A DNA stretch of 64,000 nucleotides from Parelaphostrongylus tenuis. Its lineage: Eukaryota > Nematoda > Chromadorea > Rhabditida > Metastrongylidae. Position 1 is the stretch's first letter. Each line of letters starts with the position of its first letter. A model generated the notes under the pieces. That model was not told where the DNA came from, did no database searches, and saw only the letters and a program-made list of their open reading frames with translations. The position numbers and the translations under genes are program-made. The DNA lies in contig JAHQIW010002266.1 in the NCBI GenBank assembly GCA_019055375.1, positions 558,001 through 622,000 on the forward strand, in the 5' to 3' direction. Shown here piece after piece: positions 2,442 to 52,959 of the stretch.

Positions 2442-2489
2442 GTGCTACTGATGAGTCCCAATAGGACGAAATAGGCGCCTATATAGCAC
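2442..2489 (+). ncRNA. type I hammerhead ribozyme, canonical
   Basis: All core parts are present in order. Stem I is GTGCTA (2442-2447) with TAGCAC (2484-2489), six perfect pairs. Core CTGATGA is at 2448-2454. Stem II is GTCC/GGAC with loop CAATA (2455-2467). GAAA is at 2468-2471. Stem III is ATAGG/CCTAT with a two-base loop (2471-2482), then A17 at 2483. Predicted cleavage is after 2483. Every invariant base of the hammerhead consensus is kept, so this copy should be able to self-cleave. It is isolated: no PLE protein fragment or second copy of this version was found nearby, so the parent element is unknown. Confidence 0.88.
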
Positions 2490-3838: not shown

Positions 3839-4033
3839 GGATTTGAACGTTGTGCTCTTGTCGGTTACAAGAGACAAGTTGGCAGAAGACACGGTCACAC
3901 AGACCAAAGTTCAGCCTGCAGCAACTTGGAAGTGCAACCAGCCACTTGAAGGGCAAAAGTCGCGCAACCCGGAAGTTTGACGCGAGCAGCACAAAGGTCA
4001 GTGCGCCGCTAAGGACAATCTAACCATATTCAG

Positions 4034-4103
4034 ATATCGATCGGGTCACTGCCTGAGACAAATCCAGGGACCACACAGCAAAAACCACTGAACCTCCACC
4101 ACA
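4034..4103 (+). repeat. 3' end of the BEL 5' LTR
   Basis: These 70 bases recur at 9397-9466 with two differences. The block ends in CA, as LTRs do, and is followed after one base by a primer-binding site, so 4103 is taken as the 5' LTR end. Confidence 0.8.
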
Positions 4104-4104
4104 T

Positions 4105-4119
4105 TGGTGCATTGGCCGG
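4105..4119 (+). other. primer-binding site for tRNA-Gly
   Basis: TGGTGCATTGGCCGG is the exact reverse complement of the last 15 bases (including CCA) of the widely conserved tRNA-Gly(GCC) 3' end. It starts one base after the LTR terminus, the normal position for minus-strand priming. The tRNA match is from my knowledge of that tRNA's sequence. Confidence 0.8.
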
Positions 4120-4231
4120 CTTTATTCGAATACGAGTCGCCAACGAAACTTTCAATCAAAGGAGTCAGGTGCCAAGTTACCTGCTCCGAATTTTAATTTC
4201 AAATATTCACTTCAAACATACTAGAGCAACT

Positions 4232-5510
4232 ATGGCACATAGTCTTGTTCTTTCTCACAAAAATGAGGCACTTATTAAAGCCTCTGAGCAACTTGAAAAA
4301 GCACTGGTAAAAGTTAAGCAAGACCAGATACAAATACAGAATTCCATAACATTGGAAGACCTCACTGCCGCAAGAGTCCAATGTCAAGCTGGATTATCTG
4401 TAGTTGAGAAGATGACGGATAACGTACAAAAAGGCCTAGATATTTCTCTTGACAAACTAAGAGAAATACATCCTGACCCAGATAATGCTGAACAGAATTA
4501 TAGGGACACCTTGACCTATTCTCAACAACTCTTAGACGACTCTTTTGAGTACACGACCATTTTGCTAACGCAAATTGATTCACTACGGCAGCAAGCGGAG
4601 CATTCACAGACTTCCCAACTGCCAACTAAAAAAGTGGAAACTACAGAAACACCCATTGTTCGAAAGATGGAGCTTCCCACGATACCCATTCCCACGTTCA
4701 ATGGCGACATCTGGGAATGGGACAATTTTTGGGAACTCTACAATGTAAACGTACATTCGCAAAATATATCAGACCTCCAAAAGTTTAACTATTTGATTAA
4801 CTCTTTGAAGGGGGAGCCCCTCCAGGCCATTGAAAGTTCCAAATCAGCAGTGATAACTATCAAAAGGCCATCCATGCTCTCACCTCCAAATACGCAAACC
4901 CAGAAGCGCTCATCGCCCAACTGCTTCAAAAGTAAGACAGAACTTCGCTTCGCTCAAACGCTATAAATGACCAAAGGGTACCATTCGAAAACGTGCAGGC
5001 CATACTATTCCAGTTAGCTCAAAAGGGTGAGATACCAACAGTCAATATATGTATACCAAAGTTTTGACCAAATTTCCACCCGAAACGCAAAGGAAAGTAT
5101 TGACTAGTAGAACAACAGCTGGTTCGTCATTTACCATGCAATCGCTTCTGCAATTCTTAGAGGAGACAATCTCCAATGAGGAATTCATAACGCGGTATAT
5201 AACCACCAGTAAACCCGATTCACGCCCTTCAACTTATACAACTTATAGACAAAACACCAACCAACAAGGGAGACCACAGTTTCCCACGTACACTTGCATG
5301 TATTGTAGTGGCAACCATTACCCTTTCCAATGCGACCGTTACAAAACGCCGCAGGACATATATCAGTACCTTCGAGATAGCAAGTGATGTCACATATGCG
5401 CATCTGCAACACATACTACAGCGCAGTGCAGAGGGACATTCTGCCGCAATTGCCAGAAATCCCATCACACGTCATGCTGCCTTTCTGCCGCCCCTAATCA
5501 AAACCCTACA
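4232..5510 (+). pseudogene. gag: BEL gag (capsid and zinc knuckles), broken
   Basis: The first ATG in frame is 4232; the open frame also extends upstream without ATG. The start region is helical and charged, with coiled-coil character (ASEQLEKALVKVKQDQ). It is followed by the DUF1759-like segment around LPTIPIPTFNGDIWEWDNFW, diagnostic of BEL gag. A frameshift near 4850 ends the frame at 4966, and gag resumes in another frame to 5387. Two CCHC-type knuckles are visible: CMYCSGNHYPFQC (in frame, about 5297-5335) and a second one, CRNCQKSHHTSCC, in a shifted frame near 5440-5480. The protein would form the particle and bind RNA; this copy cannot make a full product. Confidence 0.85.
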
Positions 5511-5596
5511 ACTAATATAAAGCCCAAAAGAGATAGCGGACATCAACAAAAAGGCCCCACCAACGCGACCAACGTAAACGTAGTCGGTTATCAACT

Positions 5597-6286
5597 TTGA
5601 ATGAAGACACAACACCAGCACAGACTATAGGACGCCCAGCATCGCTGCCCACAGGACAGCTTACTGTGCTAAATCCACAATCCAAGCGCCTACAAAAGAT
5701 ACATGTCTTATTCGATTCGGGCGCTGAACTCTCTTTCATCGACCAGAAACTTGCGCAAGAGTCAGATCCACAAGTTAAGGGACAAGTTAAGTTACGTCTT
5801 AACACATTCGGCGCCCAGACTGTACAAGAACATTGGTCAAAAATGATCTCTATAGACGCGTGGGACAAGGATGGCAATAGAATTTTCCTCAATTTGTACA
5901 CCCACAGCAATATTTCAAGATCAATTCAAATGCCAAATATGACTCTTGAAGATCTAAAGTTCATACGCGAAAATGACATCCAAATTGAAATCAATCAAGA
6001 TCAACCCATTCAGCCCTCCATCCTTCTCGGATGTGATCAACTCTGGACTTTGATGAAAACAGATAACCCTCTCATCCAATTACCATCAGGTCTTTATTTA
6101 CTTCCAACAACTCTTGGATACTTACCGACCGGTAAACCCCAGGAGACGTCACAGTCATACCATAAAGACCACAACCTACTGCTAGGACTACAACAGTCAG
6201 AAATAGAGCAACAAATGTTGGACAATAATGACAAGTATGACGACATTGCAATCTGGGAGCAAAGTTGGATATATAAGCTCAAGTAA
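5597..6286 (+). pseudogene. BEL aspartic protease region
   Basis: An open frame of 229 codons. The catalytic signature FDSGAELSFI lies about 37-46 residues in, matching the DSGA-type retropepsin motif of BEL elements, and is followed by the LGCDQLWTL segment typical of the A17 polyprotein. It would cleave the Gag-Pol precursor. The frame stops at 6286. The next stretch (6287-6675) still encodes recognisable linker sequence such as KWERFCTLEYAGTQEFG in another frame but is interrupted. Confidence 0.82.
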
Positions 6287-6675
6287 ATACTGCCTTCATA
6301 CACGATGACCAAGAAAAAATCAAATGGGAAAGATTTTGCACCTTAGAATATGCCGGAACACAAGAATTTGGAAATTTTGAAAATGAAGAGAAGAAACAGA
6401 TCGAACAAGAAATCTGGAATGACTTCAACAGAACTATCCAGAAAAGAAAAGAATCGATGGATATTATGTTCGACTCCCTTGGAAAGAATCATGTACCTCA
6501 TTACCAGATAACAAAATTATTGCATTCAACAGACTAGCAAAGCGTTCGGAAATCCTTAAAAAACAACGAAAATCATCTAGAGAGATACAATGATATATTT
6601 AATGAACAAATCGGATCAAATGTCTTGTAAGAAGTCTATGATAATGACACTCCACCCAATTCTCGGGTCCATTAC

Positions 6676-8100
6676 ATGCCACATCAAGCTGTTCTGACAC
6701 CTAACAAGCCAACTACCAAACTCAGAATAGTCTACGATGCATCCGCCCATTACAAGGGTCAACCATCATTAAATGACACATTGCATCGTGGACCCGTCAT
6801 TCTCCCAGAGGTATTCGGACTCCTCCTTCGTTTCAGATTTGGAAAAATAGCCCTCACTGCGGATGTTGAGAAAGCATTTTTGCAGATCCGTCTCCATGAA
6901 GATGACCGTGATTCTACACGTTGTTTATGGCTTCAAAATCATAGATTACCGCCCATCCCAAGTAACGTTAAGATTCTTCGCTTTACTAGAGTAACCTTTG
7001 GATTGATCGCATCACCGTTTCTATTAGCGGCAACAATTCATTACCATCTTGGCACGTACGAACAAGACTCCCGATTAGTAGAAGAAATAAAGAATAACTT
7101 ATACGTTGATAACGTCATCTTAACTGCTGACAATCTCGAAGAATCATTTCGCAATTATTTACGTTTGAAGCAAATATTCAATGAGTTAAGCATGAATCTT
7201 CGCGAGTTTAATTCAAATGATGCAACCTTGATGTCCAAAATAGCAACACCCGATAAATCAAACGAGAAACTGCCCAAAGTACTTGAAATCCCCTGGGACA
7301 TCCATTTAGATCAGATACAGCTATCATGCGGTACGAAAATTCACCAAAAAATTACTAAGAGAATAGTCACCAGCACACTCGCCTCTATATTCGATCCATT
7401 CGGATTCCTTGTGCCCCTCCTTCATAAATTAAAAGTCTTCTTGTGCTTCTTATGGTCACAGGGATACGAATGGGACCAAATGCTATCAGACGATGATACA
7501 CCAAAATGGGCTGGTATTTGGGTGGCAATAGAAGGATTCTCTATTTCCCTACCATGCTACATAAGCATGAAGACCCACAACTATATCCTAGTAATATTTG
7601 CAGATGCTAGCTCTGAAGCAATGACAACATGTATGTATATACGTTCAGAACAGCCTGTCAATCTTCTTATGGCAAAAAGCAAGTTGCCTTCACTAAAATC
7701 TCTCATGACTATACCGAAAATGGAACTAAGTGCACTTACTCTAGCACTTAGACTAACAAACGCAGTGTTAACACAGCTTCACAACACACTGAGAATTCAC
7801 GAGAATTTATTCTTTCCGATTCGGAAATAGCCTTAGTTGGATAAGACGTAAGCCACAAACAAGTGTTGGACGTCTGATACTCAACCGACTTACGGAAATA
7901 GAAAAAATCGTCGAACACATACATAGAATGACACCACGGATTGTCTTCGGTTATGTGACAACAAATGACAACGCGGCAGACTGTGCGACACGCGGCCTTA
8001 ATCGATCCGAACTCAATCAGCATTCTTGTTGGAAAGGTCCCTACTTCCTTAGCGAACCTCCAGAAAATTGGAAAACTGTTTCCAACACATTTGAATATAA
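6676..8100 (+). pseudogene. BEL reverse transcriptase and RNase H
   Basis: RT motifs in order: TKLRIVYDASAH, ALTADVEKAFLQIRLHEDD (motif A with its Asp), FGLIASPFLLAATI (motif B region) and LYVDNVILTA (motif C). Motif C reads YVDN, with Asn where most retroelements have the second Asp; I believe similar YVDN boxes occur in other nematode BEL copies, so this may be a family trait. RNase H starts near VIFADASSEA, with PKMELSAL further on. After a frameshift at about 7830 the end TTNDNAADCATRGL is in another frame (7928 onward). It would copy the RNA to DNA in the particle; this copy is not functional. Confidence 0.88.
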
Positions 8101-8475
8101 TTCAACCTCTTCAACAGAGATTCCAGCACCTCATATTCAGAGTGACGACGCAACATCGAAGGATTTCAACCTACAGGCTCACCACCATGTGCAATTTAGC
8201 GTTACGCAGAACCCCTTAAATAAAGATAATGTAGACGATATTTTCATATCATTGAGCAAATTCCCTCTGGCAAATATTAAAAGAATCATAGCATGGATTC
8301 TAAGATACATTCGCACCCTAGTCAAAAAGGTGAACGCTTCCAAACGTTGCCACATAGACATCTCTCTACTCTTACTGATTAGAACAAATGAGAACTTCCA
8401 CATTTCCGGCCAAGAGATAGCTATAGCTGCAAAAGTACTAGTAAAGCAGCATCAGTGCAACAGTAAAAAACTGTC

Positions 8476-9396
8476 ATGTTACCCCGTATGGCACATTTAA
8501 ACATTAAGTCTGACACGGAGGGATTACTCCGTTATGGTCGCTTAAGGCGAAGCGACTTAATGGAAGACACTAAAAACCCTTTACTAATAGTACAGAATTC
8601 ATCGTTAGCCCAAGCAATAATCCGAGACTGCCACAAAAGGGGCCATCCCGGTACAGGTCATACTATGTCAATGGTCCGTGAAAAATTTTGGATCCCCAAA
8701 CTACGATCACAAGTAACACGAATCCTCCGACACTGTATTCAGTGCCAGCGGTACAATAACCTTCCATATAAATATCCGCAACAAGATGACCTAACACATT
8801 GAAGGGTTTCAAGATCACGTCCCTTTCAGCATGTCCGACTGGATTACTTTGGACCATTAACGGTGAGCCAATCAGACTCGATGGAGATTAAATGTTACGG
8901 GATCATAATAACTTGTATGACCACCAGCCTTTTACACTTGGATATCGTATCCGATTTGACAACGACCGCATTCCTTATGTGTCTCCGCCGTTTCTTTGCG
9001 AGGCGGGGAATTCCCTCTTCCATTACTAGCGACAATGCCCCAACTTTCCTATTAGCAGAAACCCTTCTCAACGAATGCCTTCAGGCCATCCACAATGATT
9101 CAGAAGTACAACGCATGGTCGCTAATCACGAGATACACTGGAATTACATCACACCACATGCCCATGTCAAGGGGGCTTTTACGAAAGACTCATTAAATCT
9201 GTAAAGCACTCTCTTCAGAAGACTTTAGGATCATCAAAAATTTCAACGGAGCACATCATAACCGTGGTCATCGAAATCGAATCGCTTCTGAATACAAGAC
9301 CACTGGTATATGTTGACTCAGACTCCCCAATAGAAAAGATACTTAGAACAAAAGATTTCATTCAAAGCGACTTTGAAATACCCTACCCATGGAATA
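8476..9396 (+). pseudogene. BEL integrase, truncated
   Basis: The zinc-binding HHCC domain is present (CHKRGHPGTGH ... CIQCQR, about 8620-8750). A DDE core follows: LDYFGP (first Asp, about 8835), ITSDNAPTF (second Asp, about 9030), and a Glu within FYERLIKSVK around 9180 in a frame shifted by one base from the preceding block. A stop separates 8802 and 8863. The sequence then reads IEIESLLNTRPLVY and IPYPWNN, where homologs continue for over 100 more residues. Here it runs into the LTR fragment at 9397. The C-terminal DNA-binding part is missing. Confidence 0.85.
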
Positions 9397-9466
9397 ATAT
9401 CGATCGGGTCACTGCCTGAGACAAATCCAGGGACCACACAGCGAAAATCACTGAACCTCCACCACA
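9397..9466 (+). repeat. remnant of the BEL 3' LTR
   Basis: 68 of 70 bases match 4034-4103. Only the last 70 bases of the LTR are present, joined directly to integrase coding sequence, so the polypurine tract and the front of the 3' LTR were deleted. The ATAT at the joint is shared with the 5' copy. Confidence 0.8.
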
Positions 9467-17589: not shown

Positions 17590-17855
17590 TCGTTTCAGAT
17601 GTTTCTCAAAACCACGCTCAAATTTCAATATGTCTGATAGCAGTCGAGTGCATAAAATCGCCCGTTCTCATAATTATTATTTGAGTATATCATGTGATCT
17701 GTTATGGGCTCTTGTACAGCCCAATACACGTGTTTCGGCCTTCCAGCCCTCGTCAGACGGGCCCTTCGTTCTTCAGCCAATCCTCTCGGGAGATCCTACA
17801 TTCCCTTACAAAAAGGATGGCGGCGATGAACGATTCACAAAATCATCTTTATAAT
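17590..17855 (-). mobile_element. hammerhead repeat unit, family 2, inverted copy
   Basis: Read on the minus strand this block matches the units starting at 17941 and 18180. Shared parts are the CGAGAGGATTGG(C) lead, the hammerhead, an AACAGA(T/C)CA(C/T)ATGA stretch and AAATAATAATT before a GAAATTTGAGCGTG end. It faces the next unit head to head, making a large inverted repeat. Confidence 0.65.
17719..17762 (-). ncRNA. hammerhead ribozyme, family 2
   Basis: Minus strand: stem I GCCCGT (17757-17762) with TTGGGC (17719-17724), four or five pairs. CTGACGA is at 17750-17756. Stem II is GGGCT..GGCC-type with one mismatch, and GAAA is at 17733-17736. Stem III is the self-complementary ACACGTGT, then A17 at 17725. 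All invariant core bases are kept. The short palindromic stem III suggests it would work best as a dimer. Confidence 0.75.
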
Positions 17856-17940: not shown

Positions 17941-18179
17941 CACTTGACGGCGATTGTATAAATCGTTCGCCGTCGCCTACCTCCTTATAAGGGGTTATAA
18001 GTTGTAGGAGCCCCGAGAGGATTGGCCAAAGACGAAAGGACCTCGCAACTGACGAAGCTGGAAGGCCAAAACACGTGCATCGGGCTGTATTAGAGGCCAT
18101 AACAGACCATATGACATGTTGGCTTAAATAATAATTGTGAGATGTTTTGAAATTTGAGCGTGATCACAATTGAAATTAA
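17941..18179 (+). mobile_element. hammerhead repeat unit, family 2, tandem copy a
   Basis: It starts with CACTTGACGGCG and is followed head to tail by a second unit starting CACTTGATGGCG at 18180, a period of 239 bases. Its ribozyme region (18043-18085) has CTGACGA at 18049-18055 but AAAA instead of GAAA, so the invariant G12 is lost and activity is unlikely. Confidence 0.65.
18043..18085 (+). ncRNA. decayed hammerhead, G12 lost
   Basis: CTGACGA and the CACGTG stem III are present, but the second core strand reads AAAA. Stem I pairing is poor. Confidence 0.55.
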
Positions 18180-19470: not shown

Positions 19471-20207
19471 ATCTGGCTTACAACAAAAAAGTTAAGAATG
19501 GCACAATATCTTTCTCATTATTATCTTCATGATTTAGATCTTGAACTCAAAATCATGGTTACAGCTCAAAATGTTTCGAGGTGTATTCCAAAAGAGGACA
19601 TTTAAATACACGGTAGACAAATGCATTGTTATGCCACTTACCGGAAACTTTTTTGTCGGATGCTTATATTTCAATTTTATTTTTATTTGGCAAAGAAAGA
19701 CAGTTTCTGTATTTGACTGAAAACTTTTTGAGGGCGCTAATTGAACTTGCCCGTCGAAAACTACTCCAAAGTCTAGAGAAAAAGCTCGCACTCGTGGTTG
19801 AATCGATGGTTATTTGGAGAGAGAATGATTGGGCTAGTCAGCTCAATAAATGAGTGCAGAGGGAATTTAAATGACTGATTACGACATGATATAGCATCGC
19901 GTGTTTTAAGTCTTTCTAGTAAGGCTAGCGTTTGAACCACTGAACATCCGACCATCGACAATCTCAAAGTGTGGATTAGTATACCGTATCAACCACACTC
20001 AAATCATTATAGATTTTGCGAAGACTAAGGAAAGACGGTGAAATCGTTCGAGATTTAACCACTGCAGACGCTGTTTTTCCATAAGCAAATGATAAGTTTT
20101 TTGACAATTGGTGTACTATTGGGGCTGAGAACACACCAGAGTCATAAAAAAGGGTTTATTTCATCCATCCAGAGTAATTCATTACCCAAGGTTGCATCTC
20201 ACTATGT

Positions 20208-21330
20208 ATGTTCTGTCAAACAAACAAATTAGTTCTTGAAACATTCTTGAACGTGCAAATAAGCTTAACTGAGAGCGGCTACATAACGAAGTGGTACCGA
20301 AAGCCAAGTAGTAAGAATATCTTGGTTCACTATCTCTCTTCTCATCCCTCACATACGAAGAAGGCGCTAGTAAAAAACATGTTTCAAACAGCAGCCAATG
20401 TATGTACCGGGGAGGAGCAGAGAGTAGAATCCGTGAAACTGGCGCGGGAAATAGCCACTTCTAATGGATACGAATTCGTAGCCCCTCGGCTTAGGTTTAG
20501 AGGAAATAATGCGCCTCCGAACGAAAACTTAGTTGAAAGGAATAAAACGATGTTTGAAAAGAGCGGGCTTAGAGCAATCGGTGGCCATTATTGAAATACC
20601 ACCGAATACTCTAAAACGCCAACTAGTTCGCAACCGCTTATATGACCGTCTCTGTATGATGAAAGATTGTAAAATATGTCCTAACGGCAGAGACGGTGAT
20701 TGCATGAGCGTAGGTACAGTCTACCTAATCTCTTGCAAAGCGTGTAGTGATAAATATGTTGGCGAAACGGGTAGGCCGCTCTATGCCGTATAGAGGAACA
20801 CCTAGCTGATAAGCGTCTTAAAAGACGGAACACCCCGCTAGGGACGCATAGAGCACAGAAGCACGACGGAGTTGATTTTGAAATCGAAGTCACCATCCTT
20901 GCGCAGGAGCAAAAAACATCACCGCGAAAGATCTTGGAAGCATTTTGGATTAATACGACCAATCCAACCATAAACCGCAGGGAGAAATGCCTTGTAAACA
21001 CTCGTGATATGAGCCAGTATATAAGACTGTTGTTTTGATGGGTAGGGTGCATTACGAGCCTATGTGTCTCTCTTGCCGGTGATCTCCACTTGGATCATCT
21101 AGTGGAACACATATAAAAAGCGGTGAGTATGTTGAGTGTTGATTTTTGCTTGATGCGATTGAAATCTAGGTCTGGTGATTTTCTTTAAAGAAGTAATGGA
21201 GGTGTTTGACTGATTGTATTGCAAACATTTTGACCTTTCCAGGCTCTGAAGAAGGCGAACTGCCGAAACGTCAGCTATCGAATAAAGTTTAATGTAACAC
21301 CTCGTGTTCTGCTCAAAGAAGAAAATCAAG
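20208..21330 (+). pseudogene. Penelope-like element: RT end, GIY-YIG endonuclease, 3' terminal repeat
   Basis: The first frame (20208-20594) begins inside the RT C-terminal part. FLNVQISL then TKWYRKPSSKNILVHYLSSHP is a hallmark of Penelope-like RTs. A second frame overlaps it and carries IIEIPPNTLKRQLVRNRLYD, a Cys pair (CKICPNGRDGDC) and GTVYLISCKACSDKYVGETG, the start of a GIY-YIG nuclease. The rest of the nuclease (TPLGTHRAQKHDGVDFE, then ILEAFWI) follows after a frameshift near 20790. The non-coding end holds a hammerhead at 21243-21275. The RT palm and the front of the element are absent, so it is 5' truncated and dead. Confidence 0.88.
21243..21275 (+). ncRNA. PLE terminal hammerhead ribozyme
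   Basis: GCT (21243-21245), CTGAAGA (21246-21252), A, stem II GGC/GCC with loop GAACT, GAAA (21265-21268), CGT, C17, AGC. Stem I is only three pairs (GCT/AGC) and stem III is minimal, as known for metazoan PLE hammerheads. Core bases are intact. Confidence 0.75.
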
Positions 21331-25458: not shown

Positions 25459-25567
25459 GCCTCAGTGGTGCAGTGGTAGAGCACACGTCCCCAGATAGGA
25501 TGAAACGTTGGTGCGATTCCCGCCTGAGGTCGTGTTTTTTGCTCACCACTTAATTCTCTTAGGAAAA
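25459..25567 (+). repeat. tRNA-derived SINE-like repeat, best-preserved cloverleaf
   Basis: Bases 25459-25530 fold like a tRNA: acceptor GCCTCAG/CTGAGGT (seven pairs, one G-T), D arm GTGC...GCAC, anticodon arm CGTCC/GGATG with a 7-base loop lacking T33, weak T arm around GGTGCGATTCC. It is then followed by CACCACTTAATTCTCTTAGGAA, shared with 25.25 kb and 39.52 kb. The missing T33 and the dispersed copies argue for a repeat and not a working tRNA gene. Confidence 0.65.
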
Positions 25568-35156: not shown

Positions 35157-35193
35157 GGCTAACGTTTCGGCAAAGTTCGCCATCTTCAGAGCC
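35157..35193 (-). ncRNA. PLE terminal hammerhead ribozyme
   Basis: Minus strand: GGCT (35190-35193), CTGAAGA (35183-35189), T, stem II GGC/GCC, GAAA (35165-35168), CGT, T17 (35161), AGCC (35157-35160). Stem I has four perfect pairs and all core bases are present. Confidence 0.75.
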
Positions 35194-36135
35194 TGGAAAG
35201 GTCAATTGATTCGCGAATTATTAAATCAAAGGCCTTCATAACCCTAGCAGAAAATGTAAGAGATAAATTTTCGGTCGCATAGAAAGACTTCGTTTCAAAA
35301 ACACTCACCGCTTAGATGTTTTAGGTCGCTCAATTAATCATTGAAGACCTGCCACTTGGAGTCTATGATAATGTAAGACTGTGTCTGGCTCAGGTCGGGA
35401 ATATTAGCCTGAGATATGGTGCTAGGTCACGCGTTATTACGAGGCATTCCTCTTTGCGGTTCATTTTTGGGCCTTTGCTATGAATCCAGAAGGCTTCCAA
35501 AGTTTTACGCGTGGACGTTTTCGATTCCTGTGCAAGGACCGTGACTTTAACGTCAAAATCTGCTCCATTATGCTTCTGTTCCCTATGCGTGCCTAGTGGG
35601 GTTTTTGGGTCGTAGTTACGTTTCCCAGCTAGGTGCTCTTTTACGCGGATGCAGAGTGGTCTACCTTCGCCAATATATTCATCCCCGCATGTCTCGCAAG
35701 AGATCAGGTAAATTGTACCCGACTCATGCAGTCGCCGTCTCTGCCGTTGGGCAAACTTTGCATTCGTTGGTTTCGCAGAGACGATCATACAGTCGGCGGA
35801 CTAATTGACGTTTTAGTGTTTTTGGTGGTATCTCGACTACTGCTACCGAATTATCTAAACCTGCTCTTTTTTAAGCAGCGTTTAATGGCTGCACTCACTT
35901 CGTTAGAAATAAAAGGCAGGATGAATGGAACCTTATCCTCGCTAGACCTTCCGTATGGGGACGCCGAATTCATTTGTGTGGTGAAAATGACTGTAGATTT
36001 GTTTTCAAAAGTGTTTGTGGGTATTGATGCGAAGAAGTAGCTGTGAAATGTGTGCTGCTGATGAAAATGATTTTTTTGTAAAGTTCTTCTTCATAAACTA
36101 GAACACAAGGTTGATATCGTGTAATTTATTTTAAC

Positions 36136-40542: not shown

Positions 40543-40745
40543 GTTTTATTAAGACCACGCTCAAATTTCAATAGATCCTTTCATTATTATTTGAGCCGAC
40601 TTGTAATGTGGTCTGATAAGGACGAGTCAAGAACGAAACACGTGTATCGAGCTGTACAAGAGTCCTCACTAGATTAGATGACAAGTTGGCTCAAATAATA
40701 ATGAAAGGATCTATTGAATCTGAGCGTGGTCTTAACAAAGCACTC
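40543..40745 (+). mobile_element. fold-back family 2 hammerhead unit
   Basis: The ends (40543-40607 and about 40681-40745) are inverted copies of one another, sharing AAGACCACGCTCA, AATAGATCCTTTCATTATTA and TTTGAGCC. The centre holds a decayed hammerhead (40618-40652): GGACGAG in place of CTGACGA, GAAA at 40635-40638, stem III CACGTG, TATCGAGC. The right half continues as in the units at 17.7-18.2 kb, so it is the same family. Confidence 0.65.
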
Positions 40746-47225: not shown

Positions 47226-47448
47226 AAGTTCAACTCCTTGTGAAGCATTATACGAAATGCCGAAACACATGTTTCTGCTAAACTATTGTAATGACTGATT
47301 TGAACAATGCTCAAAAAAGACGGCTGGAAACATTCTGAGCGACTAATCTACGATAATTCAAAAGATTGACTGTTTTTGGAACCCCCAAAATCATTCAATA
47401 TAATGCCAAAAAAGAATGATTTAAGCTCAAAAAGGAGTTGGTACGCCA

Positions 47449-47496
47449 GGGTCATACACCGGTGTTTCGGAGGTTCGTCCTCCTCATCAGTGACCC
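47449..47496 (-). ncRNA. hammerhead ribozyme, array copy 1
   Basis: Minus strand: stem I GGGTCA (47491-47496) with TGACCC (47449-47454), six pairs. CTGATGA is at 47484-47490. Stem II is GGAGG/CCTCC with loop ACGAA, and GAAA is at 47465-47468. Stem III is the palindrome ACACCGGTGT, and A17 is at 47455. Fully consistent with an active type I hammerhead; the loopless stem III suggests it acts as a dimer or co-transcriptionally. Confidence 0.9.
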
Positions 47497-47718
47497 CCGC
47501 CCCACATTCAGCCCTGCATTGAAGCAAGGAGGGAGGCGTATGTGGTGATGGCACAGTGTGCTATGACACTGTACCATCACCACCTCTCATTCGATGGATT
47601 TTTGCTGTTAGATCAAAACTAAATCAAAAGATCGACTGTTTTTAGAACCCCGAAAAAAAACATTCACAATAATTCCAAAAAAGAACGCTTTAAGCTCAAA
47701 AACGAGGTTGTTACGCCA

Positions 47719-47766
47719 GGGTCATACACCGGTGTTTCGGAGGTTCGTCTTCCTCGTCAGTGACCC
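47719..47766 (-). ncRNA. hammerhead ribozyme, array copy 2
   Basis: As copy 1, with CTGACGA as core (allowed, N7) and one substitution that mismatches stem II (GGAAG/CCTCC). Confidence 0.87.
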
Positions 47767-47989
47767 CCGCCCCACATTCAGCCCTGCATTGAAGCAAGGA
47801 GGGAGGCGTATGTGGTGATGGCACAGTGTGCTATGACACTGTACCATCACCACCTCTCATTCGATGGATTTTGCTGTTAGATCAAAACTAAATCAAAAGA
47901 TCGACTGTTTTTAGAACCCCGAAAAAAAAAACATTCACAATAATTCCAAAAAAGAACGCTTTAAGCTCAAAAACGAGGTTGTTACGCCA

Positions 47990-48037
47990 GGGTCATACAC
48001 CGGTGTTTCGGAGGTTCGTCCTCCTCGTCAGTGACCC
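47990..48037 (-). ncRNA. hammerhead ribozyme, array copy 3
   Basis: As copy 1 with the CTGACGA core and a perfect five-pair stem II. It lies 271 bases from copy 2. Confidence 0.89.
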
Positions 48038-48060
48038 CCGCCCCACATTCAGCCCTGCAT

Positions 48061-49612: not shown

Positions 49613-49848
49613 TCACCTGTCGTCCCGTTGATCGTCGAGTGACTCGAGCGGGTACCAGCAACTCTTCCATTTTCCCCTATCGCGTGCAAGAGTAGCCCAG
49701 TGGGTCCTCCTTGCTCTAGGAATTCGCTGAGCATCATATCTTTCTTCCATCGCTTTCGTGAAGAAATCGGACCAACGGGTCAGTGGTCTTCCTTTAGAGC
49801 GCTTGACATCCCGAGGAATCCAGTCGGTAACGGCTCTCGTCAATCGTT
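49613..49848 (-). pseudogene. RTE C-terminal tail, frameshifted
   Basis: The shifted frame carries LTRAVTDWIPRDVKRSKGRP, RWSDFFTKAMEERYD, RTHWATLARDRGKWK and ends QRDDR. It continues the main frame's AGHVMRFNDN directly, so an extra base near 49845 separates them. Confidence 0.85.
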
Positions 49849-52608
49849 GTCGTTGAAGCGCATCACGTGTCCGGCCCACCTTATTTTCGATATCCTGGCG
49901 TGTAGAACGGCGTCTCTGATTTTCGATCGTTGACGTAGGTCGGAAGTTCGGATCCTTTGTCTCATTTGCGAAATACGAGATACTCCTAGCATCGACCTTT
50001 CGACTGCGCGTTCGATAACGGCAAGTGATCTTTCATCCTGCTTACGTAGCGACCAGGTTTCTGCTGCATACGTTAGGGCAGGGATAATTGTCGAGTCGAA
50101 AAGGTGGGCACGGAGTCGGATGTTCTTTGTCCTCTTCACTACATCTTCGATGCTCTTCAACGTTCCCCAAGCCGCTCGTTTCCTCCTGCTCAACTCTGGG
50201 GCTAGGTCGTTCATCATGTTGATTTCACGACCTAAATAGATGTAACTGGAGCATTCGGAAATTGTCGTTCCGTTGAGCGTGAATGGGGCATTAGAAACCC
50301 ATCCGTTCCTCATGAACATTGTTTTCGTTAGATTCAGTTGAAGACCGATCTTTCCACAGGCGTTATCGAAATCAGTCAACATTCGTTCCGCTTGGCTGAT
50401 GTTTGGTGTTATGAGAACGATATCGTGAGCAAAGCGAAGATGGTTTAATTGTCGACCGTCAATTTTCACTCCCATTTCGTCCCATTCTAATGTTCGCATG
50501 ACGTTTTGTAGGGTGGCAGTGAATAGTTTTGGCGATATTGTATCGCCTTGTCGAACCCCTCTTCTTACGTCAATGGTGATATTGTTGTAGAATGGAGATA
50601 TTCTGGTCGTGAAATCTTTATAAAGCTCACGAAGGATCATTATGTACCGAGTAGGGACGCCCTGGTTATCCAGAGCCTCTATAACCGCTTCTGTTTCCAC
50701 TGAATCAAAGGCTTTTTTCAGATCGATAAAAGTGAGACAGAGTGGTTGCTTGTACTCTCGCGAAACTTCAATGAGTCTCGTGATCGTGTGGATGTGGTCC
50801 ATGGTACTAAATCCTTTTCTGAACCCTGCTTGTTCGCATGGCTGTCCTTCGTCCAGTGTTCTGTCAATCCTGTTCAGGATGACTCGAGTAAAGAATTTAT
50901 AGACAACGGACAGCAAGCAGATTGGGCGATAATTGCCTATGTCGCGAAGGTCTCCCTTTTTGAACAACAATACGGTCTTGCTGGTTTTCCATTGAATAGG
51001 GACCTTGCATTTTGACAGGTAGCGAGTGAAGAGCCGAGCCAGGGTGTTGATGAGAACTGGCGGCAAATTCTTCAGGTGTTCTGGTCTAATCCTGTCTGGA
51101 CCGGGTGTTGTTCTGTTTTTCACCGACGATATAGCATGTCGGATTTCGGAAGGAAGGACCGGTGGAACGACATATTCGTCCTCTTTCAATTTATATGACG
51201 GTAAGAGAACATGGCTAGCGAAGAGATCCGAGTAGTACTGGTGGATGATTTTCTCTATAGCCCTTCTGGAAGCTGTAAGTGTCCCGTCAGGGTATCGGAG
51301 TGCAATCATCTTGGTCTTATAGTTGGCGAAGCCTCGCTGGGCTTTGCGAATGCTCTTCCCAGCTTCTGCAGCTTCTGCCATAACTGCTGCTCTTCTCTCT
51401 TTAAGGTCTTCTTTTATAGCTTCTCTGCATCGTTTCACAAGTTCGGACGTAAGGTTTCGATTGCCTGCAGCTCGTGCGATTCCACGTTGACGTATCAGCT
51501 CGAGTGTCTGCGGAGACAAGCGTCTCTTCGTGACCTTAGGACTTTCGGCTTTTTTAGCGCCAACGTGAAGATATTCAACGAGTCGATCGTATTCTTCGTC
51601 GATGTTGTCGACAACGGTATCTTCCCAAGAGCCGACTAATGATTTGAATACATCCCAGTTTATGGTAGTTCTGGGACTTCGTTGTTTGAATTTAGCGGCT
51701 TTCTCTCCTCTCCTCGAAAATCGGAACGTTGCGCGAAGGAGACGATGGTCTGATCCCGTGTAGAACTTGGAAACAACAGCGACGTCGGTCAGGCAAAACC
51801 TTCGATTTACTATGATGTGATCTATTTCGTTATGGTACTCTCCATTGGGAGACTCCCACGTCCATCGCTGAGAGAGAGGCTTTTGGAATTGCGAGTTACC
51901 ATGGATGGTTTGGGTCGTCATGATAAACTCGGATAGCCTCTCACCCTGTTCATTCCATTCTAGTCCGTGGGTCCCTATGTGACGTTCTTCAGACGTTCTT
52001 CTAGGTCCAATTTTTGCGTTAAAATCTCCGACAATGACCTTGAAGAATGTATGATCTTCTCTGAAGAATTTTTCGAGGTCCATATAGAACGCTTCGACTT
52101 CGTCTTCGTCATAGCTTGATGTTGGTGCGTAAGCAACGAAGATGGTCAAAGCCGGCATAGAACCACATCGTTTCAACCGTAATCGTCCGATGCGGGTTGT
52201 TAGTTGTTCGAACGAATCAATGTTCACGGTCAAATTCGATTTGACGAGGACGCCAACGCCACCGACACCTCTGCGATCGCATGTTCCAAGGAACAGTTCT
52301 TCTCCGGTGTCATAGACAGCGTGAAAAGGATGGTGCCTTCTCGTCTCAGCCAGGCCAATGACGTCGTACCTTATTCTTCTTGCTTGAATCAACAGATCTT
52401 CTACAGCGGATTGTTGAGCAAGGGTTCTTGCATTGTAGGTACAGATCGTCATTTTAGTCCGTTTCGATCTTGGCAGCCTAGTTCGGCCCTGAGATTTTAG
52501 CAGCCTCTCCGTACTCGTCCTACCTGGCGCTGCCGTACCAGGGGCTCTTTCGGGGTCAGGGGAATGAGGCCCATATTTGTTACTGTTTTTGGCATTTTTG
52601 ATACCCAA
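49840..52608 (-). pseudogene. RTE endonuclease/reverse transcriptase, catalytic Asp replaced
   Basis: The open frame covers 922 codons. It has no ATG before 52452, where MTICTYNARTL begins exactly at the endonuclease; upstream in-frame sequence is conserved-looking. Apurinic-type endonuclease motifs: TYNART (Asn), LAETRR (Glu), VGDFNAKIG (Asp, Asn), GSDHRLL (Asp, His). RT motifs: GPDRIRPEHL, NYRPICLLSV, FIDLKKAFDSV (motif A), GVRQGDTISPKLF (motif B), LRFAHDIVLI (motif C). Motif C should read FADD; codon 50425-50427 is CAC (His, residue 728), so catalysis should be lost. A one-base frameshift near 49845 cuts off the C-terminal 80 or so residues. It would nick DNA and prime reverse transcription if intact. 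Confidence 0.9.
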
Positions 52609-52959
52609 CGTGTAGCTTGCCAGGCTCTAAACGTGGGGGCTGGGTACCCACGAGTAGCTTGCCAGTCTCTCTCGGAGGAGCGGGAGGAGCTTATTTGTTG
52701 GAGGCGACTCCTAACCGCCTCCCATGTACTTCCCAGCCGCTTGATTGCAGGCTTTTGGCCGACTTGACTCGTAGAAATAGAGTCTTGTCAAGTCGGCACT
52801 GCAGAAGCAGGGAGCTCGTCCCCTGAATCCACCTGCGTCTCTGGGAAGCACACGGTCGCTTTTGGTTCGCGTTTTATTCCCCTATCCACCACCTGGGGAC
52901 GCGCCACGTGCCCTCGCGACTAACCGGGCGGGATCCCTCAAAGAGGGAGGTCCGTGGCT

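Follow-up and report, generated by a model that had tools for sequence, protein, structure and literature searches.

The window examined here, a stretch of 64,000 nucleotides from the nematode Parelaphostrongylus tenuis, carries on its minus strand a tandem array of hammerhead-bearing units, together with several other mobile elements (Table 1). The preliminary description of this DNA had presented the array as three near-identical units of about 270 bp without a coding frame. The array and its three hammerheads were recovered, and no frame of 90 or more amino acids in the ORF list overlaps it. Three units, however, proved a generous count, since there are two full units accompanied by pieces of 101 nt and 65 nt. 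TRF, run over the window, returned a single array in this region. A tRNA hit elsewhere in the window, at 25459-25531(+), is probably a tRNA-derived repeat, and a similar stretch adjoins the array of another locus (L039), as judged by eye.

Table 1. Features of the window. Families 1 and 2, Penelope-like elements (PLEs) and sites A and B are treated in the text.
Feature	Position	Strand	Remarks
Hammerhead of second retrozyme family	2442-2489	+	Hammerhead_1 29.5 bits, E 6.5e-6, below gathering score 34
Pao/BEL-type retrotransposon, several frames	4013-9419	+	Peptidase_A17, RVT_1, DUF1759, DUF1758
Minimal hammerhead-like motif of window PLE	35160-35189	-	pattern scan, position by arithmetic
GIY-YIG end of PLE (fragment), presumed kind of mobilising enzyme	35390-35800	-	
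Family-1 retrozyme array	47354-48060	-	tandem repeat, period 270, 2.6 copies (TRF)
3' tail, unit positions 1 to ~100	47354-47454	-	101 nt, end at site B
Equivalent of site A within tail; inferred start site in other arrays	47397-47402	-	position by arithmetic
Hammerhead 1	47449-47496	-	cleavage expected between 47455 and 47454
Full unit 1, cleavage to cleavage	47455-47724	-	
18-bp rod hairpin, unit 1	47542-47583		
Equivalent of stem CAGTCGAT...ATCGACTG around site B; inferred reverse-transcription start region	47588-47638	-	folds, arithmetic
Hammerhead 2, stem II pair broken	47719-47766	-	descriptor scan
Full unit 2, cleavage to cleavage	47725-47995	-	98% identity to unit 1
18-bp rod hairpin, unit 2	47812-47853		
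Hammerhead 3	47990-48037	-	descriptor scan
5'-truncated unit, unit positions 206-270	47996-48060	-	65 nt, array 5' end
Long open frame, endonuclease and reverse transcriptase (RVT_1) domains, RTE-like by eye	49840-52626	-	

A descriptor scan placed the last base before predicted cleavage (H17) at 47455, 47725 and 47996 of the minus strand, exactly where the three hammerheads had been located before. The motif parts listed at that time were found (stem I GGGTCA/TGACCC, CTGA(T/C)GA, GAA and stem III ACACCGGTGT), and the substitution said to break a stem II pair is seen in the middle copy. Of the four hits that the scan gave in the window, three represent one motif in repeated copies; 60 dinucleotide shuffles of the window averaged 0.22 hits and never exceeded 2. 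It was used because Rfam is blind to these hammerheads: Hammerhead_1 (RF00163) did not match those of the array, and the sole Rfam match, to the third of them, was RAGATH-1-hammerhead at 14.1 bits (E 1.9). The type I layout was thus assigned from stem order and not from Rfam. A stretch at 47240-47277(+) that looked by eye like a degenerate hammerhead was rejected, as it contains no CTGANGA core and was not picked up by either of two scans.

Stem III of the family-1 hammerhead is a 10-nt palindrome which, folded as a hairpin, provides 3 bp and a 4-base loop. With so short a hairpin, it is possible that the hammerhead acts as a dimer, by analogy with what is reported for axolotl hammerheads with a weak stem III. 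The 18-base hairpin noted earlier in the unit has arms that are 94% complementary and a loop of 6 nt. Folded as a circle, the whole unit is predicted to reach -87.6 kcal/mol (z = -3.8 against 200 shuffles).

The assembly (481.5 Mb in 5105 contigs) contains at least 207 matches to the family-1 unit, as judged from the best 40 of 1260 candidates, which were scored. Arrays were read in the window and in 38 other clusters from these best 40, which do not form a random sample; cluster C1940, whose match score is the same as that of C1941 and whose coordinates are nearly so, was left unread. Three of the 39 loci are duplicates (L017, L035 and L041), leaving 36 distinct arrays, and a second, incomplete array near the end of locus L042 was left out of the counts. 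Of the 106 full units read, 101 are 268-274 nt long and 101 have an intact hammerhead core; mean GC content of the 106 is 0.452. The stretch that holds the hammerhead is also the least variable of the unit: its mean minor-allele frequency of 0.012 is below that of every one of 171 circular shifts, whose median is 0.050 (36 loci). Free variation of the core across the genome, named in the preliminary description as evidence against its reading of the array as a retrozyme, is therefore not what these copies display. That reading is supported by the features now seen: tandem units with a hammerhead of type I layout, low GC content, a dispersed family of about 270 nt with a conserved core, and target duplications at 27 of the 36 distinct arrays. 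One of the loci, L020 (G000:C1583:141030-148446), is a large inverted array in which 16 full units are antisense and 10 are sense, with additional pieces; it runs into the contig end, and several of the units that come last in it have diverged strongly.

Most of the arrays read from these best 40 candidates share a characteristic arrangement. Head-to-head inversion is seen in 24 of the 36 distinct arrays, the other 12 being one-sided, and in all 24 the antisense units lie on the left and the sense units on the right, so that both RNA 3' ends point outward. A shared 12-mer (at most one mismatch) flanks the array at 30 of 39 loci, or 27 of 36 distinct arrays, in comparison with 1.8% of 380 swapped control pairs; by class, it is found at 20 of 24 two-sided and 7 of 12 one-sided arrays. 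The 12-mer of L037 sits inside the array and was left out of this count. Similarly, exact flanking words of 10 or more nucleotides occur at 23 of 39 loci and in none of 1482 control pairs. The exact 12-mer duplications (21 loci) are 70% A+T, compared with 60% for the window. Because one duplication pair bounds both halves, a two-sided array is best read as the product of a single insertion.

The outer 3' ends are not placed at random along the unit. Among 58 ends, 49 lie either 45-67 nt (site A) or 98-115 nt (site B) past the hammerhead cut, in clusters centred at about 55 and 104 nt; the two ranges, drawn after the data had been seen, together cover 41 of 270 unit positions. The 58 exclude the duplicates L017, L035 and L041 as well as L042 and L043, and two of them, both counted under A, are not true ends: on its right L020 stops where the contig does, and the L034 end at 62 is caused by a nested family-2 copy, beyond which the array continues to about 105. 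Exactly one B end is present in 20 of 23 two-ended arrays (L020 left out, and the left end of L018 set from its duplication), a result that was reached in 26 of 100,000 shuffles. The pairs comprise 14 A+B, 6 B+other, 2 A+other, 1 A+A and no B+B, the three arrays devoid of a B end included, and the second ends off A and B are scattered at 0, 9, 17, 27, 41, 42, 42 and 72. Apart from one exception, the left end of L009 at the cut, the outer 3' ends are not those of self-cleaved monomers.

The window array itself is one of the 12 one-sided members. Its left end is at B and its right end is cut off at unit position 206, and no target duplication was detectable around it by comparison of exact words and 12-mers in its flanks. 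The tail belongs to another subfamily than the units (85%) and bears markers unlike theirs, and the units themselves are mosaic. In the stem around site B, the 3' arm is mutated, and the fold of the window copy lacks the full stem. Rather than the best example of its family, the window array may be an old member, or one that was recombined or template-switched.

A fourth hammerhead in the window, at 2442-2489(+), is unrelated to the three in the array and was absent from the preliminary description. It belongs to a family of 283-nt units, so that the genome contains at least two retrozyme-type families. Family 2 has at least 116 matches (best 40 of 2414 candidates), many copies being 99-100% identical over 198 nt, and a family-2 query found no family-1 unit at E 1e-4. 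Five two-sided family-2 loci were read (L050, L072, L079, L080 and L081), three of them chosen because both strands were represented. Each has one end at 91-110 and its opposite end no farther out than 54, that of L072 being placed by eye. Duplications of 12-15 bp were seen by eye in L072, L079, L080 and L081. L034 contains a family-2 copy nested within the tail of a family-1 array; this copy covers one complete turn of the unit, and its ends overlap. Further, CAGTCGAT precedes the B end in both families (p 0.0015), and in predicted folds of both, CAGTCGA is able to pair with TCGACTG beyond site B.

The family-2 representative in the window is a single copy at 2177-2527, with repeated ATCAGATTA words on its 5' side that look like slippage filler by eye. 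Degenerate elements resembling a third hammerhead family were also observed at 17673-17763(-), 18049-18135(+) and 40570-40715. The pair at 17.7-18.1 kb is arranged head-to-head, and a fuller relative adjoins L036.

PLE-like sequences are present in the same window. A PLE-like fragment with its minimal hammerhead-like motif and tail spans 35160-35800(-), and another was recognized, by eye only, at 20178-20594(+). Pfam gave no match to the GIY-YIG fragment itself; across 81% of its length, the fragment shares 95% identity with a P. tenuis protein. Its other named hits come from the strongylid nematodes Angiostrongylus, Haemonchus, Ancylostoma, Necator and Heligmosomoides, and PF01541 is present in many of the relatives. 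The minimal motif was missed by the strict hammerhead scans and was spotted by eye, then by pattern; hammerheads of PLEs are said to have been described by Cervera in 2014 and by Lunse in 2017. Another locus, L067, has an 840-aa frame with RVT_1 (E 9.4e-11) and GIY-YIG (E 0.0047, below the Pfam cut-off), and Rfam gave no hammerhead match at its equivalent of the motif.

With the PLE fragment as protein query, 18,174 first-look candidates were obtained and the best 150 scored. Head-to-head order was found in 7 of 20 automatically cut PLE windows of about 3.4 kb, a size that clips copies short (L053 and L056 are one insertion). The ends were studied in 12 loci, ten of them fetched for both-strand hits or a long open frame (L067 and L072 excluded) and two, L055 and L059, taken from the 20 automatic windows. 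As L055 is a cut version of L073, these represent 11 insertions, most of them chosen for both strands. Exact flanking words of 12-15 bp are present at 6 of the 11, and a length of 12 is reached by 1 of 132 swapped pairs, probably L055/L073. In seven insertions, one end lies 158-171 nt past the minimal hammerhead-like motif and the other is shorter, at 111-114 by alignment in five and at 137 and 80 in two; the remaining four are incomplete, diverged or nested. The two ends of the five aligned insertions are 44-58 nt apart, and sites A and B of family 1 are separated by about 50 nt. In addition, AGTCG occurs 12-17 nt before the B end, as placed from duplications, in family 1, family 2 and PLEs, and a shared word of that length was obtained in 1 of 2000 shuffles. 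The likeness of the B ends of family 1 and PLEs alone is weak (p 0.04 at best; pairwise word p 0.23-0.28). Homology of the whole retrozyme tail with two PLE tails was considered and discarded, being not significant or marginal when no anchoring was applied.

Taken together, these results favour, with a probability of roughly 0.6, the view of the array as a metazoan-type retrozyme that is non-autonomous and was copied into DNA, via circular RNA, by a PLE reverse transcriptase/GIY-YIG endonuclease. The parts of this view are not equally firm. The sequences give good support to the existence of the family, to conservation of its ribozyme, to target duplication on insertion and to an anatomy of the insertions that matches PLEs, as well as to the PLE link. 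Self-cleavage, circularity, expression, priming on two strands and the action of a PLE protein on these RNAs are what we infer from them. The anatomy is a property of the family (24 of 36 arrays inverted, 20 of 24 of these flanked by a shared 12-mer, 20 of 23 with one B end) and not of the one-sided window copy, around which no duplication was found; nor does the repeat contain a reverse transcriptase ORF of its own, as an autonomous PLE does.

Under this proposal, minus-strand transcripts would self-cleave at every hammerhead, and the resulting 270-nt monomers would be closed to circles. A PLE complex would nick both target strands about 12 bp apart, and the target 3' ends would then prime cDNA inside the RNA, one at B (~104) and the other at A (~55) or nearer the cut. 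Each cDNA may make a variable number of turns round the circle before the two cDNAs are joined at their ends, through short overlaps in some arrays and filler in others, to give a head-to-head array with its 3' ends outward. Extension on one side only would yield a one-sided tandem such as that in the window. Rolling-circle copying of a circle is an economical reading of halves that have many units and preferred start sites. A more specific suggestion, to which we give slightly less than even odds, is that integration here follows a new mode, in which a dimeric PLE complex nicks the two target strands and both prime on one small circle (B distal, A proximal), followed by rolling-circle copying from both sides and a join in the middle. 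It would be common to two unrelated nematode families, with the CAGTCGAT stem at B as shared recognition element.

The form of the template is the part of this scheme that has the most serious competitor. Insertion might be PLE-driven with a long uncut multimeric transcript, or a partly linear cleaved RNA, as template, an alternative that we regard as unlikely but deserving of attention. Transcribable arrays exist, the longest half-array among those read holding 16 full units, and hammerhead cleavage is dispensable for PLE insertion in vitro (PMC11167929). The junction 5' ends in the middle of the inverted arrays occur all over the unit, with an excess near the hammerhead: of 48 ends, 18 lie within 27 nt of the cut, where 9.6 are expected (p 0.004); none falls at positions 268-270 or 1-2, which is chance level (0.9 expected). 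This enrichment suggests that some templates may be linear, or that copying may stall at the hammerhead. The homogeneity of units within arrays points in both directions. In one subfamily pool, units of the same array are more alike than those of different arrays (0.9975 versus 0.9927, permutation p 0.0005), as copying from one circle would predict, whereas in the other pool no such effect was found (0.9663 within, 0.9680 between, p 0.59). Since the effect is confined to one pool, circles are not proven against long uncut transcripts. Array-private variants, considered as a proof of circular templates, are few and not general. Against uncut multimers, no part of the unit is as well conserved as the hammerhead, and multimers should therefore be cut in vivo. 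The family-2 copy in L034, once round with overlapping ends, also argues for a circle, although a dimeric transcript could yield the same structure.

The two halves of an inverted array mostly match in their subfamily markers, with a concordance of 0.901, compared with 0.588 with shuffled partners (p 0.0002). The clear exception is L009, in which the halves are of different haplotype (9 of 20 sites equal), and which would imply that a single event drew on two RNA templates.

Mobilization by another reverse transcriptase, for example that of the RTE-like element at 49840-52626, whose RVT_1 and endonuclease domains make it a candidate within the window itself, is very improbable when set against the inverted two-start pattern of the PLEs in the same genome. 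Head-to-head halves, two preferred internal starts and a single B end in each insertion would not be expected of a LINE-type mechanism.

Inversion by fold-back self-priming of an antisense template was proposed for rotifer PLEs with the same head-to-head order (PMC3846280). Equal 5' ends of the two halves would then be expected, but in 22 of the 24 junctions they lie more than 10 nt apart. The two that agree within 10 nt are at chance level (1.9 expected), and one of them, L014, is a hairpin alignment artefact. The 24 junctions comprise overlaps of 1-5 nt in 8, longer overlaps in 3, blunt joins in 6 and filler of 4-21 nt in 7, the overlaps being counted without a control; the longer overlaps (L009, L014 and L028) look like alignment artefacts. 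As the 5' ends of the halves differ, and as fold-back leaves the presence of one A and one B end unexplained, little probability is assigned to it. Finally, an ordinary satellite that owes its spread to unequal crossing-over or to rearrangement at the DNA level, the hammerhead being incidental, would suit the long homogeneous arrays C1583 and C822, but is the least credible explanation in view of the target duplications, the preferred 3' ends combined with variable 5' ends, and the concentration of the strongest constraint on the hammerhead.

The PLE-mediated retrozyme favoured here may be compared with several known systems. According to Cervera and de la Pena (2020; PMC7229834), metazoan non-LTR retrozymes have units of 170-400 nt, a GC content below 50% and duplications longer than 4 bp. 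The P. tenuis family resembles them in its small tandem units, hammerhead of type I layout, lack of a coding frame, GC content below 50%, target duplications longer than 4 bp and well-paired predicted circle. It differs in the inversion of 24 of the 36 arrays read and in its two preferred 3' start sites; the main text of that paper mentions neither inverted or head-to-head arrays nor nematodes. In the literature searched, which lay mostly outside subscription papers, none of the titles listed concerned retrozymes in nematodes or inverted retrozyme arrays, and no paper there combined Penelope, head-to-head copies and hammerheads. Plant LTR retrozymes are likewise non-autonomous, with hammerheads at unit ends and a proposed circular RNA, but carry LTRs, type III hammerheads and 4-bp duplications according to the same paper (PMC7229834).

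PLEs of the same genome are similar to the retrozymes in having head-to-head copies, a longer end on one side and target duplications. They possess their own minimal hammerhead-like motif upstream of the ends, the retrozyme hammerhead being fuller, whereas the retrozyme unit is repeated many times without a frame of 90 or more amino acids, and beyond the short word near the B end, comparison with two PLE tails showed no significant likeness. Published PLEs also occur as head-to-head copies, with duplications of 8-10 bp and a tail of 31 bp on one end (PMC3846280); published tails are 30-40 bp in contrast to about 50 here, and the duplications here are about 12 bp.

The enzyme that moves animal retrozymes was left open, with PLEs as a strong candidate, in PMC7229834, and a 2024 review still places it between LINEs and PLEs. 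A PLE-like insertion signature in retrozyme arrays bears on this question, and since the arrays carry it, the question becomes directly testable in the genomes of other animals and in vitro. In experiments with a purified PLE protein from Anolis, both target strands were cut and extended, and synthesis began internally at two sites, with no start-site difference between strands and no effect of hammerhead mutants on insertion (PMC11167929). The P. tenuis arrays record, at many sites, insertions that fit this both-strand extension, shown in vitro for one PLE enzyme. In contrast to the Anolis system, in which the start site does not differ between strands, they appear to follow a rule absent from that report, one distal and one proximal start per insertion, and they provide many natural templates for counting start sites, turns and joins.
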